A DNA stretch of 64,000 bases from positions 1-64,000 of the forward strand of contig NZ_JAEMWU010000001.1 of the NCBI RefSeq assembly GCF_017303215.1, written 5' to 3'. The notes beneath the pieces were generated by a model. That model did not search any database, had not been told where the DNA came from, and was given only the letters and a program-made list of their open reading frames with translations. The stretch's first letter is position 1, and every line of letters starts with the position of its first letter. This stretch comes from Microbacterium esteraromaticum (GTDB lineage Bacteria; Actinomycetota; Actinomycetes; Actinomycetales; Microbacteriaceae). Shown in pieces: positions 48,872-63,057 of this stretch. A program made the position numbers and the translations under genes.

Positions 48872-49882
48872 TCACGATGCAGTGGGCGAATCCTCAGCGT
48901 GCACGACGAGTTTTCCGGCGGCGTGCCCCGTCTCGATGCGAGCCATTGCCTCGCCCGCCGCCTCGAATGCGTACTCGTCGGCGATCACAGGATGCAGGCG
49001 CCCCTGTGCCACGAGGTCGAGCAGGTTCGCGAGGATGTCCGGCTTCGCGACGGCTGCGAGGGGGCGGATGCGATGGCGCGATCCGATCGAGAGCAGAGCG
49101 GCCCGTAGCATCCGAGGGATCGGTCCGAGCACGCGTCCGCCATCGCCCCCGACGAGCACGACCGTGCCACCGGGACGAGTGAGCCGCTGCAGCGCGCGCA
49201 GCGACTGCCCGCCGGCGATCTGGATCACCGCGTCGTACTCACCGTGCGGCAGCTCGTCCACGGGGGTGTTCCGGTCGAGCACGCGTGCGGCGCCGAGCCC
49301 GGAGAGTAGCGGGTGGTGCTGTTCGCCGGACGTGGCATGCACCTCGGCACCACGGATCGCCGCGAGCTGGACGGCGAACGTGCCGACGCCACCGGAGGCC
49401 CCGAGAATGAGCACTCGGTTGCCCTCGGTGACCCCGGCGAGGTCGAGCGCCTGCCAGGCGGTTCCGCCCGCGATCGGCAGTGTCGCCGCGATCTGCGGCG
49501 GCACGGCCTCGGGTCGCGGCACGCAGCGAGCGACCGGGGCCGTCGCAAACGGCGCCAGCCCTCCGCCGCCGGGCAGTTCGGCCACGACGGCGTCGCCGAC
49601 GGTGGCATCCGTCACTCCGTCGCCGAGGGCGACGACCGTACCCGCGACATCCATGCCTCGGACCGGCTGACGGGGCCCGCGCAGTCCGAAGGCGGGCCGG
49701 ACGACCAGCGGGTCGCCGAGCATGATCCGCACGTCTCCGGCGTTAAGCGCGGTGGCCTCGATGCGCAGCAGCACCTCGCCGCGTCGCGGCTCGGGGGTGG
49801 TGCGCTCGTGGCGTCGGATGCCGGATGCCGGCCCGTAGCGGTGCTGCATCCAGGCGGTCATGGTGGTTGTCGAAACGGTCAT
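48872..49882 (-). CDS. MDR-family NAD(P)-dependent dehydrogenase/quinone reductase
   Basis: 336 residues. An N-terminal GroES-like domain (RRGEVLLRIEATALNAGDVR, RGMDVAGTVVALGDGV) and a Rossmann domain with LGASGGVGTFAVQLA near 155-170. The cysteines that bind zinc in alcohol dehydrogenases are missing, so it is closer to quinone-oxidoreductase-like or enoyl-reductase members. It begins one base after the stop of the XRE gene, so it may be the third gene of that small operon. Confidence 0.85.
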   Translation of the reverse strand: MTVSTTTMTAWMQHRYGPASGIRRHERTTPEPRRGEVLLRIEATALNAGDVRIMLGDPLVVRPAFGLRGPRQPVRGMDVAGTVVALGDGVTDATVGDAVVAELPGGGGLAPFATAPVARCVPRPEAVPPQIAATLPIAGGTAWQALDLAGVTEGNRVLILGASGGVGTFAVQLAAIRGAEVHATSGEQHHPLLSGLGAARVLDRNTPVDELPHGEYDAVIQIAGGQSLRALQRLTRPGGTVVLVGGDGGRVLGPIPRMLRAALLSIGSRHRIRPLAAVAKPDILANLLDLVAQGRLHPVIADEYAFEAAGEAMARIETGHAAGKLVVHAEDSPTAS

Positions 49883-49883
49883 G

Positions 49884-50099
49884 TCAATCCTCCGGGTACT
49901 GGAAGAGGTCATCGAGCCCGAGCTGGAGTGCGCGGGCGATCTGGAAGGCGAGTTCGAGCGTGGGCGAGTACTTGCCCTGTTCGATCGCGATGAGGGTCTG
50001 GCGGGTGACGCCGATGGTGCGGGCGAGTTCGGCCTGCGTGAGCCCGGCGCGTTCGCGGTGCGCGCGGATGCTGTTGGTGACCAGTGTCGGCTTGACCAT
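49884..50099 (-). CDS. Small XRE-family helix-turn-helix regulator
   Basis: 71 residues, essentially one Cro/C1-type helix-turn-helix (RERAGLTQAELARTIGVTRQ, then TLIAIEQGKYSPTLELAFQI). It ends DLFQYPED, the usual end of the YozG-type group. It overlaps the stop of the membrane-protein gene (TGATG) and is followed after one base by the dehydrogenase gene. The pair membrane protein plus small XRE regulator is common in Actinobacteria. It probably binds the TGTAAAAGATTCTTTACA-type sites upstream. Confidence 0.9.
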   Translation of the reverse strand: MVKPTLVTNSIRAHRERAGLTQAELARTIGVTRQTLIAIEQGKYSPTLELAFQIARALQLGLDDLFQYPED

Positions 50100-50521
50100 C
50101 AGATGAGCCCCCGCCGGTAGGCGATCACGCGGGCGATTCCGCCGACGAAAGCCGAGACGGCGAACCCGGCGAACATGGTCTGTGCGATCCAGAAGACATC
50201 GGCGCTGACCGCGCACAGGGCGATGACGCCGAGCCCGGCGATGACCAGGAAGGCGTGCTCGACGCGTGTTCCCATGCGCGAGATGTCGCGGTCGCGGATA
50301 TCGGTGGCGGCGACCGCGTCTCCCTCACGGGCACGGGCGATGAGCGCCCAGACCGCGATGATCAGCACCGTGAGCACGATGCCGGCACCGATCGTCCACA
50401 GCATGATCGGCAACCACGATGCCGTGGGATCGGAAGCACCCACGAGCACCACCACATATACGGGGATCGTCAGCACCAGGCTGATCAGTCCGGCCCAGGC
50501 GGCCCGTTCCTCAGCGACCAT
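50099..50521 (-). CDS. Four-helix membrane protein paired with XRE regulator
   Basis: 140 residues, four hydrophobic segments (about 8-30, 38-62, 89-107, 113-133) with a charged loop near 65-85 (AREGDAVAATDIRDRDISRM). I recognise the layout of small integral membrane proteins encoded with XRE regulators but not a named function. ATG 50521 is preceded by GGAGG six bases away. That ribosome site lies in the 3' arm of a 30-base hairpin (50528-50557), so translation may be controlled. Confidence 0.8.
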   Translation of the reverse strand: MVAEERAAWAGLISLVLTIPVYVVVLVGASDPTASWLPIMLWTIGAGIVLTVLIIAVWALIARAREGDAVAATDIRDRDISRMGTRVEHAFLVIAGLGVIALCAVSADVFWIAQTMFAGFAVSAFVGGIARVIAYRRGLI

Positions 50522-50527
50522 CACACA

Positions 50528-50557
50528 CCTCCGTGTAAAAGATTCTTTACACGGAGG
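50528..50557 (-). promoter_or_regulatory. Operator hairpin that pairs with the ribosome site
   Basis: CCTCCGTGTAAA and its perfect complement TTTACACGGAGG flank a six-base loop. The inner TGTAAAAGATTCTTTACA (50534-50551) is an operator-like dyad. On the transcript of the membrane-protein gene the GGAGG ribosome site is the last part of the hairpin and would pair with CCUCC. If transcription begins upstream of the hairpin, the site is masked. Confidence 0.65.
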
Positions 50558-50578
50558 CTACGCCTACCCGCGGCGCGA

Positions 50579-50596
50579 TGTCAAGAATCTTTTACA
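50579..50596 (-). promoter_or_regulatory. Second operator copy overlapping a -35 box
   Basis: Read on the minus strand this is TGTAAAAGATTCTTGACA, the same 18-bp dyad as at 50534-50551 with one change. That change creates TTGACA, a perfect -35. TAGCCT, 18 bp further downstream on that strand (about 50556-50561), could be the -10. The two operator copies thus bracket the promoter, as expected for XRE autoregulation. Confidence 0.6.
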
Positions 50597-50613
50597 TGGG
50601 CCGCGGTCGCCCC

Positions 50614-50674
50614 GTTCAGGTCGCAATATCTCCCGCAACATCACCGCGGAAGCGGCACAAATTGCGACCGGAAC
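50614..50674. repeat. 61-bp GGTCGCA palindrome
   Basis: GTTCAGGTCGCAAT at 50614-50627 pairs with ATTGCGACCGGAAC at 50661-50674, with one mismatch. TCTCCCG follows the left motif as in the cluster at 20364-20470, so it is a second locus of that family. It lies between the XRE/membrane operon promoter and the 3' end of the second putA. Confidence 0.65.
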
Positions 50675-50710
50675 GACCGCTTGCGACGAGAACACCCCGC
50701 GCGGGCCGGC

Positions 50711-53700
50711 TCAGATGACCCCGGCGCTCCAGTCGTCGGGATCCCCGAAGCGGTGCGCGGTGATCGAGATCGCCTGCTCGTGCACGAACGGCAGCAGTTC
50801 CAGCCGCCCGGCCGTAGTCACCTCGTTGTCATAGACGGCGAGATCCGGGTCACCGGCCACCGCACGCGCCAGATCCGCGTGCAGCGCCGCGACGGCCTCG
50901 CGCGATCCGACCAGTCGCACGCGCCCGGCATCCACACGGCCCGAAGCCCCGGCATCCGACGTCACGGCATCCACCCCTCCGGAGTGGACCGCACCGCCGC
51001 GCCGCGCGATGCGGTCGATCCACTCCGCGTCGCTCTCGACCGCGATGAGCACCTCCAGGTCGCTGAGCTGCCCGCGCACGCCGGCGGGAAGGCCCGCCGG
51101 CACCGACAGCACGAACGGCGCTCCCGCGCGGATGCCGGCGAACACCACCCGCAGCACTTCGTGCAGCCCGGCATCCGACGTCGCACGCACCGTCACCGGA
51201 ACCGGCCGGTACCGGAACAGATTGCGTTCGACCCCCAGGTGAGAGACGTCACGCACCTGACCGAACTCGCGATCCCACGCGACGGCGTCTGAGAGCGCCG
51301 CCTGCCGCAGCCACTCGAACTCGTCGAACCCGAGCGAGGGCTGCGCCGCCTCGATCAACGTCGAGATGCGGGTGTCGAGACCCCGCAGATGCAAGGTGCT
51401 CGACACCTTGCCCCGCGACTGCGAACGCCAGCGCCCCAACCCGACCAGGTAGTTCGGCCCGCCGGCCTTCGCTCCGGGTCCGACCGACGAGCGCTTCCAC
51501 CCTCCGAATGGCTGGCGCTGCACGATCGCGCCGGTGATGCCCCGGTTCACGTAGAGGTTGCCGGCCTGCACCCGGTCGAGCCAGAGCTCGAGGTCAGCGG
51601 GGTCCTGCGTGTGCAGTCCCGCTGTCAGCCCGTAGGCCACGGCATTCTGCATCTCGATCGCGTCGCTCAACGTCGCCGCGTGCATCACCCCCAGCATCGG
51701 CCCGAAGAACTCCTCCAGGTGTGTGCGCGAGCCCGGCTGCACCCCGGCACGCACGCCGGGACTCCACAGCCGCCCGCTGTCATCGAGCGATCGGGGGCGG
51801 ATCAGCCACTTCTCGTCACCCTCCAGGTCGTTCAGCGCCCAGGCGAGCTTGCCCTGCGGCTGCTCGATGACCGGGCCGATCTCGGCTGTGGGGTCCGACG
51901 GCCAGGCCACCCGCATCGACTTCACGGCATCGGCCAGTTGCCGCACGAACCGCTTGGAGCGGCCCACCGGACCGACCAGAATCGCCAGCGACGCCGCCGA
52001 GCACTTCTGCCCGGCGTGGCCGAAGGCGCTGCGCACGAGGTCGGCGACGGCGAGATCGAGATCGGCGGTGGGGGTGATGACGATCGCGTTCTTTCCGCTG
52101 GTCTCGGCCAGCAGCGGCAGGTCAGGACGCCACGAGCGGAACAGCGCCGCGGTGTCCCATGCGCCGGTCAGGATCACCCGATCGACCGACGGGTGCGCGA
52201 TGAGCCGGCGTCCGAGTTCGCGTTCACCGAGGTCGACGAGGGCGAGCACGTCCCGCGGGACACCCGCCTGCCACAGCGCCTCGGCGATGACGGCGGCGCA
52301 CCGACGCGCCTGATGGGCGGGCTTGAAGACGACCCCGGATCCCGCCGCCAGCGCGGCAAGCACACCGCCGGCGGGAATCGCGAGCGGAAAGTTCCACGGT
52401 GGCGTGACCACCGTCACCTGCGCCGGCTCGAAACGCGCGCCACTGACCGCGTCGAGCTCACGCGCGCGGCTGGCGTAGTACTTCGCGAAGTCGACGGCCT
52501 CACTGACCTCGATGTCGGCCTCCGAGAACACCTTGCCCGTCTCGACGGCGGCGATCTCGATCAGATCGCCGCGTCGCGTCTGCAGCGCGACGGCGGCACG
52601 CTGCAGGATCTCGGCACGTTCGGATGCCGGACGCGCGCCCCACTGGGCACCGCCGGCCTGTACGCGGTCGAGTGTCTGCTCCAGCATCCGCTCGTCGTCG
52701 ATCCGCGCGGCACGCACCGAGTCAAGGCCCAGGGCGCACGCGTCGGGCTCGGCGACGCGTGCGAGGATGCCGCGCGCCCACTCGCGGTTGGCGGGCAACG
52801 CCGGATCACTGTCCGGGGTGTTCTCGAAACCGGGGGCACCTGCGGTGCCGTCCACCGCGACAGCCAGCTCGTGACGCGCGTACACGGCGGTCTGCAGAAA
52901 GGCGTCGCCGTCATCCTCCGACCCTCGGGCGATATCGAGCACGACGCCGGTGAGGTCTTCGCGCTCGACCGCCCGGCGCGGTGCGGGGCGCACGGATTCG
53001 TGCGCCGGTGCGTTGCGGTCCTGGGTGCGCCGCGGCCCGATCTGCAGGGTGCGGTCGTCCTTGCGGGTGAGCGAATCCACGAAGCGCAGCCGCTCACGCT
53101 CGAACAACGAAGGATCCTCGGCGAGATGGAACGCCGCCGAGAGGAAGTTCGACGGCGACGCGTTCTCATCGAGACGGCGCACGAGATAGCTGATCGCGAC
53201 GTCGAACTCAGCGGGATCGACCACGGGCACGTACAGCAGAACCTCGCCGACCTCGCGGGCCACGGCCGCCACCTGCCCCTGCGCCATGCCGAGCAGCATC
53301 TCGAACTCGATGGCGTCGCGCACCTCGCGCTCCCCCGCCAGCAACCACGCATAGGCGATGTCGAAGAGATTGTGCCCGGCGACGCCGATGCGCACGGCGG
53401 CGGCGTTGCGGGGCGTGAAGGCCTCGTCGAGGCAGCGCAGGTAGTTCGCGTCGGTGTCGAGCTTGGTGGTGTACGGGGCCTGCGGCCAGCCGTGCATCAC
53501 GGCATCCACCTTCTCCATCGCGAGGTTGGCGCCCTTGACGAGCCGCACCTTGATGGGCGCACCGCCATGGTCGACGCGGTCGCGCGCCCAGGCGGTCAGC
53601 TCGCGCAGCGCGGGCAGCGCGTCGGGCAGGTAGGTCTGCAGCACGATGCCCGCCTCAAGGCGCTTCAGCCGTGGGTCCTCCAGCAGACGCGTGAACACCG

Positions 53701-54400
53701 CGACCGTCAGATCGAGGTCGCGGTACTCCTCCATATCGAGGTTGATGAACGTGCCGTTCGCCGCGGCGGTCACGTAGAGCGGCAGAAGACGCTCGATCAC
53801 CTGGTCGACGATCTCGTCGAACGCCCACATCGAGATGCGGCTGATGATCGCCGACACCTTCACTGAGACGTAGTCAACGTCGTCGCGGCGGATCAGCGCG
53901 TGAATGCCGTCGAGCCGGCGCTTCGCCTCGGCCTCGCCGAGCACCGCCTCGCCGAGCAGGTTGAGGTTGAGCCGAGAGCCCGAGACGCGCAGCTTCTGCA
54001 GCGCGGGTCCGAGCTTGTCGGGTCGCGCGTCGACGATGAGATGGCCGACCATCTCACGCAGCACGCGCCGTGCGATCGGCACGGTGGGCACGGGCAGCAG
54101 CGGGGCGACGCCCCCGCCGAGCCGCACCACGCCGCGCAGGTACCAGGGCAGGAAGTCGGGCGCGAGCGTCGCGACCCGATGCAGATTGGATGCTGCCGCC
54201 GACGCGCTCTCCGGGCGCATCACCCCGTCGACGAAGCCCAGGGTGAAGGGCATCCCCTTCGGATCCTGCAGCACTCCCGCGAGGCGCTCGGCGGCCGGGT
54301 CGACGTGCTCATCGGCGGCCTGCAGAACCCAGCGCGCGGCGAGTTCGACGGCCGCTTCCGCCAGGTCGCTTCCGGTGGGCGATGACGACTGCTCTGCCAT
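50711..54400 (-). CDS. PutA paralogue: proline / glutamate-semialdehyde dehydrogenase
   Basis: 1229 residues, same architecture as the protein at 29057-32497. Proline dehydrogenase barrel with DDVDYVSVKVSA, GTFINLDMEEYRDLDLT and FEMLLGMAQGQ, then ALDH with TPPWNFPLAIPAGG and Cys800 in GHAGQKCSAAS. The linker between the domains (about 450-545) is roughly 50 residues longer and rich in Arg, Asp and Pro. Both active domains look intact. No LysR gene accompanies it. It may serve ornithine/arginine-derived glutamate semialdehyde, as rocD is 2.9 kb away, while the other copy serves proline; this division is a guess. Confidence 0.9.
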   Translation of the reverse strand: MAEQSSSPTGSDLAEAAVELAARWVLQAADEHVDPAAERLAGVLQDPKGMPFTLGFVDGVMRPESASAAASNLHRVATLAPDFLPWYLRGVVRLGGGVAPLLPVPTVPIARRVLREMVGHLIVDARPDKLGPALQKLRVSGSRLNLNLLGEAVLGEAEAKRRLDGIHALIRRDDVDYVSVKVSAIISRISMWAFDEIVDQVIERLLPLYVTAAANGTFINLDMEEYRDLDLTVAVFTRLLEDPRLKRLEAGIVLQTYLPDALPALRELTAWARDRVDHGGAPIKVRLVKGANLAMEKVDAVMHGWPQAPYTTKLDTDANYLRCLDEAFTPRNAAAVRIGVAGHNLFDIAYAWLLAGEREVRDAIEFEMLLGMAQGQVAAVAREVGEVLLYVPVVDPAEFDVAISYLVRRLDENASPSNFLSAAFHLAEDPSLFERERLRFVDSLTRKDDRTLQIGPRRTQDRNAPAHESVRPAPRRAVEREDLTGVVLDIARGSEDDGDAFLQTAVYARHELAVAVDGTAGAPGFENTPDSDPALPANREWARGILARVAEPDACALGLDSVRAARIDDERMLEQTLDRVQAGGAQWGARPASERAEILQRAAVALQTRRGDLIEIAAVETGKVFSEADIEVSEAVDFAKYYASRARELDAVSGARFEPAQVTVVTPPWNFPLAIPAGGVLAALAAGSGVVFKPAHQARRCAAVIAEALWQAGVPRDVLALVDLGERELGRRLIAHPSVDRVILTGAWDTAALFRSWRPDLPLLAETSGKNAIVITPTADLDLAVADLVRSAFGHAGQKCSAASLAILVGPVGRSKRFVRQLADAVKSMRVAWPSDPTAEIGPVIEQPQGKLAWALNDLEGDEKWLIRPRSLDDSGRLWSPGVRAGVQPGSRTHLEEFFGPMLGVMHAATLSDAIEMQNAVAYGLTAGLHTQDPADLELWLDRVQAGNLYVNRGITGAIVQRQPFGGWKRSSVGPGAKAGGPNYLVGLGRWRSQSRGKVSSTLHLRGLDTRISTLIEAAQPSLGFDEFEWLRQAALSDAVAWDREFGQVRDVSHLGVERNLFRYRPVPVTVRATSDAGLHEVLRVVFAGIRAGAPFVLSVPAGLPAGVRGQLSDLEVLIAVESDAEWIDRIARRGGAVHSGGVDAVTSDAGASGRVDAGRVRLVGSREAVAALHADLARAVAGDPDLAVYDNEVTTAGRLELLPFVHEQAISITAHRFGDPDDWSAGVI

Positions 54401-55656: not shown

Positions 55657-55734
55657 CGACACCCCGTGTTCGCGCCGAGACCCCCTGCTGCAGACGTCTG
55701 CAGCAGGGGGTCTCGGCGTCAGGTGGGGGTGTCG
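55657..55734. repeat. Double-dyad element with a 46-bp perfect palindrome
   Basis: The core 55673-55718 is a perfect, loopless 46-bp palindrome (from CGCCGAGACCCCC to its complement, centred on GACGTC). Outside it, CGACACCCC (55657-55665) and GGGGTGTCG (55726-55734) form a second pair. The motif CGAnACCCC therefore occurs twice per arm, 19 bp apart. It lies between convergent genes, so it could act as a bidirectional terminator, but it lacks T-runs and shares its design with elements that precede genes. Confidence 0.75.
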
Positions 55735-58896: not shown

Positions 58897-58929
58897 GAGA
58901 GGCCCCCGTGCTCAGCACGGGGGCCTCTC
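58897..58929 (-). terminator. Hairpin terminator of the etf-cytochrome b operon
   Basis: Sixteen-base perfect arms (GAGAGGCCCCCGTGCT and its complement) around a single base, 16 bp after the stop of the cytochrome b gene. On that strand the stem is followed by CGCTTTCTCC, a weak T-tract, acceptable for a GC-rich actinobacterium. Confidence 0.75.
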
Positions 58930-62992: not shown

Positions 62993-63057
62993 GAGAAACC
63001 ATCTGTCGTGTGAGAAACCACGTGCGACGTGGTTTCTCAAACGGGAAGTGGTTTCTC
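62993..63057. repeat. Double-dyad palindrome, GAGAAACCA motif
   Basis: GAGAAACCA occurs at 62993-63001 and 63012-63020, and its complement TGGTTTCTC at 63030-63038 and 63049-63057; in each arm the copies are 19 bp apart. The inner pair extends to 13-bp arms (TGAGAAACCACGT, 63011-63023) around GCG. The sequences between motifs are not complementary. It lies between two convergent genes and is preceded by a short GGATCGCGGTCGCGGTC tract. Confidence 0.75.

Follow-up and report, generated by a model that had tools for sequence, protein, structure and literature searches.

An XRE/membrane-protein operon

The window, by which we mean the whole stretch of 64,000 nucleotides analysed here, belongs to a genome of 3,063,803 bases (3.06 Mb), placed in Microbacterium by its closest named relatives, and contains a three-gene operon that, like the gene upstream of it, is encoded on the minus strand. 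The first gene (50099-50521) encodes a 140-aa membrane protein with four predicted helices, the second (49884-50099) a 71-aa CylR2-like protein of the XRE/HTH_3 type recognised in Pfam and PDB sequence searches, and the third (48872-49882) a zinc-type alcohol dehydrogenase/quinone oxidoreductase-like protein (ADH). The three genes overlap or nearly touch, in agreement with a preliminary description of this DNA: the membrane and XRE reading frames share 1 nt (TGATG), and a single nucleotide separates the XRE stop from the ADH ATG at 49882. The membrane gene likely starts at ATG 50521 rather than GTG 50524, since most relatives start with ATGGTCTAC or a similar sequence, and it is preceded by a GGAGG ribosome site at 50528-50532. 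For the membrane protein there were no Pfam families above cut-off, the best fold match had an E value of 1.2, and the best match of its profile against the PDB reached only E 0.019. PADLOC returned generic HTH-type matches for the XRE protein and none for the membrane protein.

Upstream and co-directional lies putA (proline and P5C dehydrogenase; 50711-54400), which ends at 50711 and is a possible source of read-through RNA. The spacer that follows it (50597-50711) is strongly structured (fold −58.9 kcal/mol, z −2.0) and forms a long stem, a possible putA transcript end or stabiliser. Besides putA and the ADH gene, the scanned neighbours include a thioesterase gene. Of the 131 relative loci described below, 111 have an ADH homologue downstream of the XRE gene and in the same orientation, and 2 have a divergent one. 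At L178 and L179 an ADH-like gene is divergent and upstream of the operon, with none found downstream, suggesting that it is part of the same regulon.

A pair of putative operators on a conserved promoter

Read 5′ to 3′ on the minus strand, the region in front of the operon comprises a putative operator O1 (50596-50579, TGTAAAAGATTCTTGACA) that ends in the −35 box TTGACA (50584-50579), a gap of 18 nt, a predicted −10 box TAGCCT (50560-50555), 3 nt, a second putative operator O2 (50551-50534, TGTAAAGAATCTTTTACA) with symmetric half-sites TGTAAA/TTTACA, the GGAGG, and the ATG. On the plus strand O2 reads TGTAAAAGATTCTTTACA (50534-50551), and O1 is a one-mismatch copy of it on the opposite strand (50579-50596). 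The TTGACA copy is the gene-distal one because the genes lie on the minus strand. These are the only two sites in the window at up to three mismatches, and none arose in 100 shuffles. Across the 3.06 Mb genome the exact pattern TGTAAAAGATTCTTKACA has two matches, both at this operon, while the looser TGTMAAN6TTKACA, with one mismatch allowed, adds one further cluster. A duplicate operator, with a single change that creates a −35 box in one copy, had been proposed in the preliminary description; the arrangement is borne out here, and its conservation across relatives lends it strong support.

Searches of 198 genus genomes recovered the membrane protein in 104 (E ≤1e-8) and the XRE protein in 110 (E ≤1e-12), and named genomes contributed at least 56 loci. 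Of 193 loci examined, 20 lacked an operator pair within the searched stretch and 42 were dropped as repeat promoters; the 131 distinct loci that were kept have both sites present, with ≤3 mismatches per site. Several bases are invariant across these relatives, and the distance between the starts of O1 and O2 ranges from 41 to 48 bp. Spacings of 44, 45, 46 and 47 bp are all common, without a single helical phase, so that cooperative binding at a fixed phase is doubtful. A TANNNT −10 box lies 17 or 18 nt past the −35 box in 115/131 loci, 16/131 being without such a box, and TANNNT occurs at any other offset only four times. In most relatives O2 becomes TTGACA when read on the opposite strand. 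Two sites with a fixed placement on a conserved −35/−10 promoter precede the XRE operon in many species. A sigma-70 consensus scan that returned 0 promoters was dismissed as an argument against a promoter, the conserved layout in relatives being the stronger evidence; the scan missed TAGCCT because it needs four of six matches to TATAAT and TAGCCT has three.

The tandem pattern is present in 147/366 genus genomes, although some of these matches represent a second, paralogous type. A second sample was taken from 31 new genomes among the matches listed, picked by the operator pair alone, and removal of 2 repeat promoters left 29 distinct loci. All 31 regions contain an XRE gene along with the operator pair, and 28 of the 29 distinct loci carry TANNNT at 17 or 18. 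Exact-consensus sites in 58 genomes number 45 in total, with 31 at this operon (in 18 genomes) and 14 elsewhere; five of these 18 genomes have one such additional site apiece, and the other 9 are spread over 6 further genomes.

Fourteen of the 20 pairless loci were re-examined, with L113-L118 (weak XRE relatives) left out. Clean operator pairs at other distances are found in L036, L047, L064, L085 and L106, and one site each in L149 and L177. Among the XRE relatives, L084, L086, L089 and L102 have only degenerate pairs, far upstream, and a proper pair is absent from the scanned stretch in L100, L110 and L112. In L036, L047 and L064 the membrane gene is without its middle, in frame, with 30, 24 and 24 codons remaining, respectively; the start, the end, both operators, the ribosome site and the XRE overlap are all kept.

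Similar sites also occur in contigs labelled Chloroflexi and Alphaproteobacteria. The further cluster found with the looser pattern lies ~700 kb away in the same genome, in front of a second XRE/membrane pair with reversed gene order (G000:C1:747934-747998; L196 1454-1518). This pair is preceded by three sites of the TGTCAA type, and the sequence TACGGT, 6 nt before its GTG start, may serve as a −10 box; its transcript is perhaps leaderless. Clusters that by eye resemble this second one were noted in G036, G069, G089, G107, G129 and G230.

Probable autorepression by the CylR2-like protein

The XRE protein aligns over residues 7-69 with the CylR2 structures 1utx and 2xiu (phmmer E 4.6e-12 and 4.5e-12, respectively), and its best PDB match is 9k3w, a PbsX-family regulator (E 1.3e-12). 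CylR2 is described as binding a promoter, and the membrane protein CylR1 as needed for induction (PMC3709268). As in the CylR1/CylR2 system of the Enterococcus faecalis cytolysin, a small XRE DNA-binding-type protein is encoded here beside a small membrane protein. The two systems differ in the membrane partner, which has four predicted helices here versus three predicted for CylR1 (PMC3709268), and in their surroundings, with putA, ADH and thioesterase genes among the scanned neighbours here and a lantibiotic/cytolysin operon there. HipB, the phage 434 repressor and related Cro/CI repressors are likewise HTH_3 relatives with solved structures, but their matches are weaker than those to CylR2, and a kinase toxin and phage genes are absent among the scanned flanking genes. 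The palindromic operators of these repressors lie over promoters. In the open-licence literature we found nothing on this Microbacterium system, and no papers for XRE/CylR2/DUF2975 or for DUF2178 with helix-turn-helix.

The best explanation for the operator pair is that the XRE/membrane operon is autorepressed by the adjacent CylR2-like XRE protein acting through O1 and O2, to which we assign a probability of roughly 0.8. A dimer of the XRE protein, the product of the second gene, would bind two sites of the form RTGTMAAGAATTCTTKACAY, with O1 over the −35 box and O2 over the transcription start, and RNA polymerase would be excluded when the XRE protein is plentiful. The membrane protein may modulate the XRE protein, a role that has been proposed for CylR1 towards CylR2. 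Autorepression is supported by the restriction of the window sites to these two, the lack of any other exact match in the genome and the conserved placement on the −35 and −10 boxes, as well as by the XRE gene in every region picked by operators, the retention of the operators where the membrane gene is shortened (L036, L047, L064) and the likeness to CylR2, a solved DNA-binding regulator. It is weakened by the 14/45 exact-consensus sites elsewhere, by the degenerate or absent pairs in some XRE relatives, by the varied distance between the operators and by the TTGACA that O2 of most relatives offers on the opposite strand. XRE proteins can also activate as well as repress, which counts against it.

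A hairpin over the ribosome site and the predicted transcription start

O2 lies within a 30-nt hairpin, CCTCCGTGTAAA-GAATCT-TTTACACGGAGG (50557-50528, minus strand), whose arms pair perfectly over 12 bp around a 6-nt loop and whose 3′ arm contains the GGAGG of the membrane-protein gene, just as had been described from the sequence. The 61-nt stretch that includes it (50560-50500) folds with z = −4.55. Perfect 12-bp-arm hairpins (loop 3-10) are not rare in the window, which holds four, with any found in 1/10 shuffles; the one at O2, the gene-proximal operator copy, is distinguished by covering a ribosome site. The others, at 63011-63039, 58897-58929 and 55679-55712, are perhaps transcript ends. 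An Rfam leader was rejected, as 50400-50800 has no match at gathering score, and so was an intrinsic terminator at O2, where a U-run is absent; no terminator-like site lies within 49800-50800.

The preliminary description had proposed that one sequence acts both as a DNA operator and as a regulated translational switch in RNA, which places the switch in the operon's own message. Such a switch would be consistent with the strong fold that holds the GGAGG, with pairing of the O2 flanks above chance in relatives (see below) and with a ribosome site that is partly paired even in RNA from the predicted start, but the promoter layout argues against it. The −10 box TAGCCT, a feature absent from that description, shares 3 nt with the 5′ arm of the hairpin. 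Spacings of 3-11 nt between the −10 box and the start are described for C. glutamicum (PMC3890552), and on this basis transcription is predicted to start inside O2, in the zone 50543-50551 and most likely at 50550-50547; even the shortest of these spacers (3 nt) would keep the CCTCCG of the window untranscribed (spacing from PMC3890552). When the start is taken as the 7th nt past the −10 box, it is predicted to fall within bases 1-6 of O2 in 115/115 TANNNT loci, and the 6-nt left flank of O2 shares at least 1 nt with the −10 hexamer in 103/115.

A start inside O2, an outcome that the preliminary description had itself named as refuting its idea, would leave the CCTCCG arm out of the operon's own RNA. 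Folding predicts a paired probability for the ribosome site in the window of 1.00 with the 5′ arm versus 0.30 from the predicted start, and alternative, weaker structures are possible in window RNA that starts inside O2. Averaged over 126 loci, ribosome-site pairing amounts to 0.72 when the left flank is included, 0.59 when it is omitted and 0.67 when the flank comes from another locus. With the pairing arm predicted to be untranscribed, and with no Rfam match, a switch in the operon's own mRNA is left unsupported and appears very improbable.

An arrangement of this kind is described for T4 I-TevI, whose autorepressor operator overlaps the promoter; transcripts from promoters further upstream fold into a hairpin that conceals the ribosome site, whereas RNA from the gene's own promoter lacks the 5′ arm and so leaves the site free (PMC2988022). 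The present locus resembles I-TevI and other T-even homing endonucleases in the overlap of a putative operator with the promoter and, if transcription starts where predicted, in a hairpin limited to read-through RNA. Unlike I-TevI, the genes here form a chromosomal XRE/membrane operon, the operator palindrome is itself the hairpin core, and the RNA part is proposed. Pairing of the ribosome site in read-through RNA is predicted in the window but is not general in relatives. In the operon's own RNA the hairpin would at best form in part, whereas RNA reading through from putA could fold it completely; much less certainly, this would conceal the ribosome site there and keep expression under the operator. 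The literature on protection of the IS10 type against read-through offered no usable comparison.

Pairing beside O2 across relatives

A palindrome kept paired with the ribosome site could leave RNA from an upstream co-directional gene untranslated, while the operon's own RNA, starting in O2, is translated. The Watson-Crick run outward from O2 in the 131 loci is 1.20 versus 0.68 in whole-flank shuffles (0/2000), and a position-by-position excess is absent from the O1 control. The 29 new loci gave an O2 extension of 1.48 versus 0.75 (0/2000), with O1 at 0.62 versus 0.61. On a tree of 154 tips with simulated independent evolution, the observed value of 1.22 compares with 0.64 (per site) and 0.67 (whole flank, 0/2000), and the observed O2 extension was reached by no simulation for positions 1-6 and by 1 in 1000 for positions 2-6. 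Clustering at 85% identity (~84 representatives) retained the O2 extension (1.29 versus 0.73), with O1 at P ~0.04, and at 70% identity (~37 representatives) O2 gave P 0.05-0.07.

Other observations count against such a role in read-through RNA. A Watson-Crick pair beside O2 is absent in 61/131 loci, or 25/131 if G-U counts, and the folding test is weak, with a mean percentile of 0.561 and 17/126 loci above 0.9 versus ~13 expected. Loci above 0.9 make up 11/51 of those with PutA upstream and 6/75 of those without, and folding places the window species among those with the strongest pairing. The preliminary description looked to relatives for compensatory changes that keep the pairing: among 49 sister pairs these are in excess over positions 1-6 (13 versus 7.2, P 0.017), but not clearly so at positions 2-5 (7 versus 4.6, P 0.17). 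It had also named the opposite outcome, pairing lost while operator bases are kept; operator bases are indeed far more conserved than the pairing, yet the pairing is above chance. Between the related L047 and L064, both sides of O2 differ, and by eye a position mismatched in one locus is paired in the other.

The flank pairing could instead be a mere extension of the symmetric DNA contact made by the XRE dimer. The positions adjoining O1 and O2 both favour R and Y, as such a contact would suggest, and O1 also has long extensions in excess, with at least four pairs at 8 loci versus 1.5-1.9 expected, and at 5 versus 1.0 for positions 2-6 (P 0.002); the motif CATCCG/CGGATG accounts for 2 of the nine long O1 extensions listed. 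This excess, like the P of ~0.04 for O1 at 85% identity, counts against a role in read-through RNA. The two sites part, however, in the mean extension over positions 2-6, which lies above the tree null at O2 (P 0.001) and not clearly at O1 (P 0.12), and in their response to G-U pairs, the counting of which removes the O1 excess (P 0.3-0.5) and leaves that of O2. An extended DNA contact as the whole cause of the pairing is therefore rather unlikely.

Orientation of the upstream gene

Orientation of the upstream gene was called by a GC-frame heuristic, which designated 69 of the 131 loci co-directional and 30 divergent and left 32 unassigned (36/160 unassigned in the larger orientation set). PutA lies directly upstream in 51/131, and many of the genes called divergent encode, by eye, identifiable proteins, among them TetR- and LacI-like ones. 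With G-U pairs counted, the O2 extension is 2.51 at co-directional, 1.17 at divergent and 1.41 at unassigned loci. On the tree, the difference at O2 between co-directional and divergent loci is 0.69 (null sd 0.20; 0/2000), while the orientation difference at O1 has P 0.09, or 0.06 with G-U. Among co-directional loci, four or more pairs (G-U allowed) are commoner where the flank contains the ribosome-site core (25/70) than where it does not (4/22).

The link to co-directional upstream genes is equally predicted if the extended palindrome is a 3′-end element of the upstream gene, either a terminator or an RNA stabiliser, and hairpins without U-runs do occur at actinobacterial transcript ends. 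O2 itself is without a U-run, the surrounding kilobase is without a terminator-like site, and pairing is stronger with a ribosome site in the flank, which a terminator does not need; a 3′-end element is accordingly improbable.

Silencing of read-through RNA by the palindrome is favoured by pairing above chance against shuffles, in new loci and against the tree null, by the orientation contrast and by the link to the ribosome-site core. The orientation contrast was spotted post hoc, depends on heuristic calls and is without independent replication, since the second sample holds only 2 divergent loci. The strongly folded spacer between putA and O1 may, in addition, already stop putA read-through in the window. 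Weighing these points together with the unpaired loci, the sister pairs at positions 2-5 and the result at 70% identity, we regard this silencing as a real possibility at slightly less than even odds.

Implications for the operon and its neighbourhood

Tentatively, and well short of even odds, these observations can be drawn together as one palindrome with two jobs: a DNA operator at the transcription start and the central part of an RNA hairpin by which read-through transcripts alone are silenced, with a strength evolutionarily tuned to the orientation of the neighbour. If this is true, an autoregulated operon would be cheaply insulated from its genomic neighbourhood, as the operator itself would make leaked RNA untranslatable. 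Well over 100 Microbacterium genomes supply a natural comparison of operons with co-directional and divergent neighbours, so that the insulation idea is open to direct test. Quite apart from any role in RNA, the present results define precisely how operators and promoter are laid out for an XRE/membrane-protein pair.
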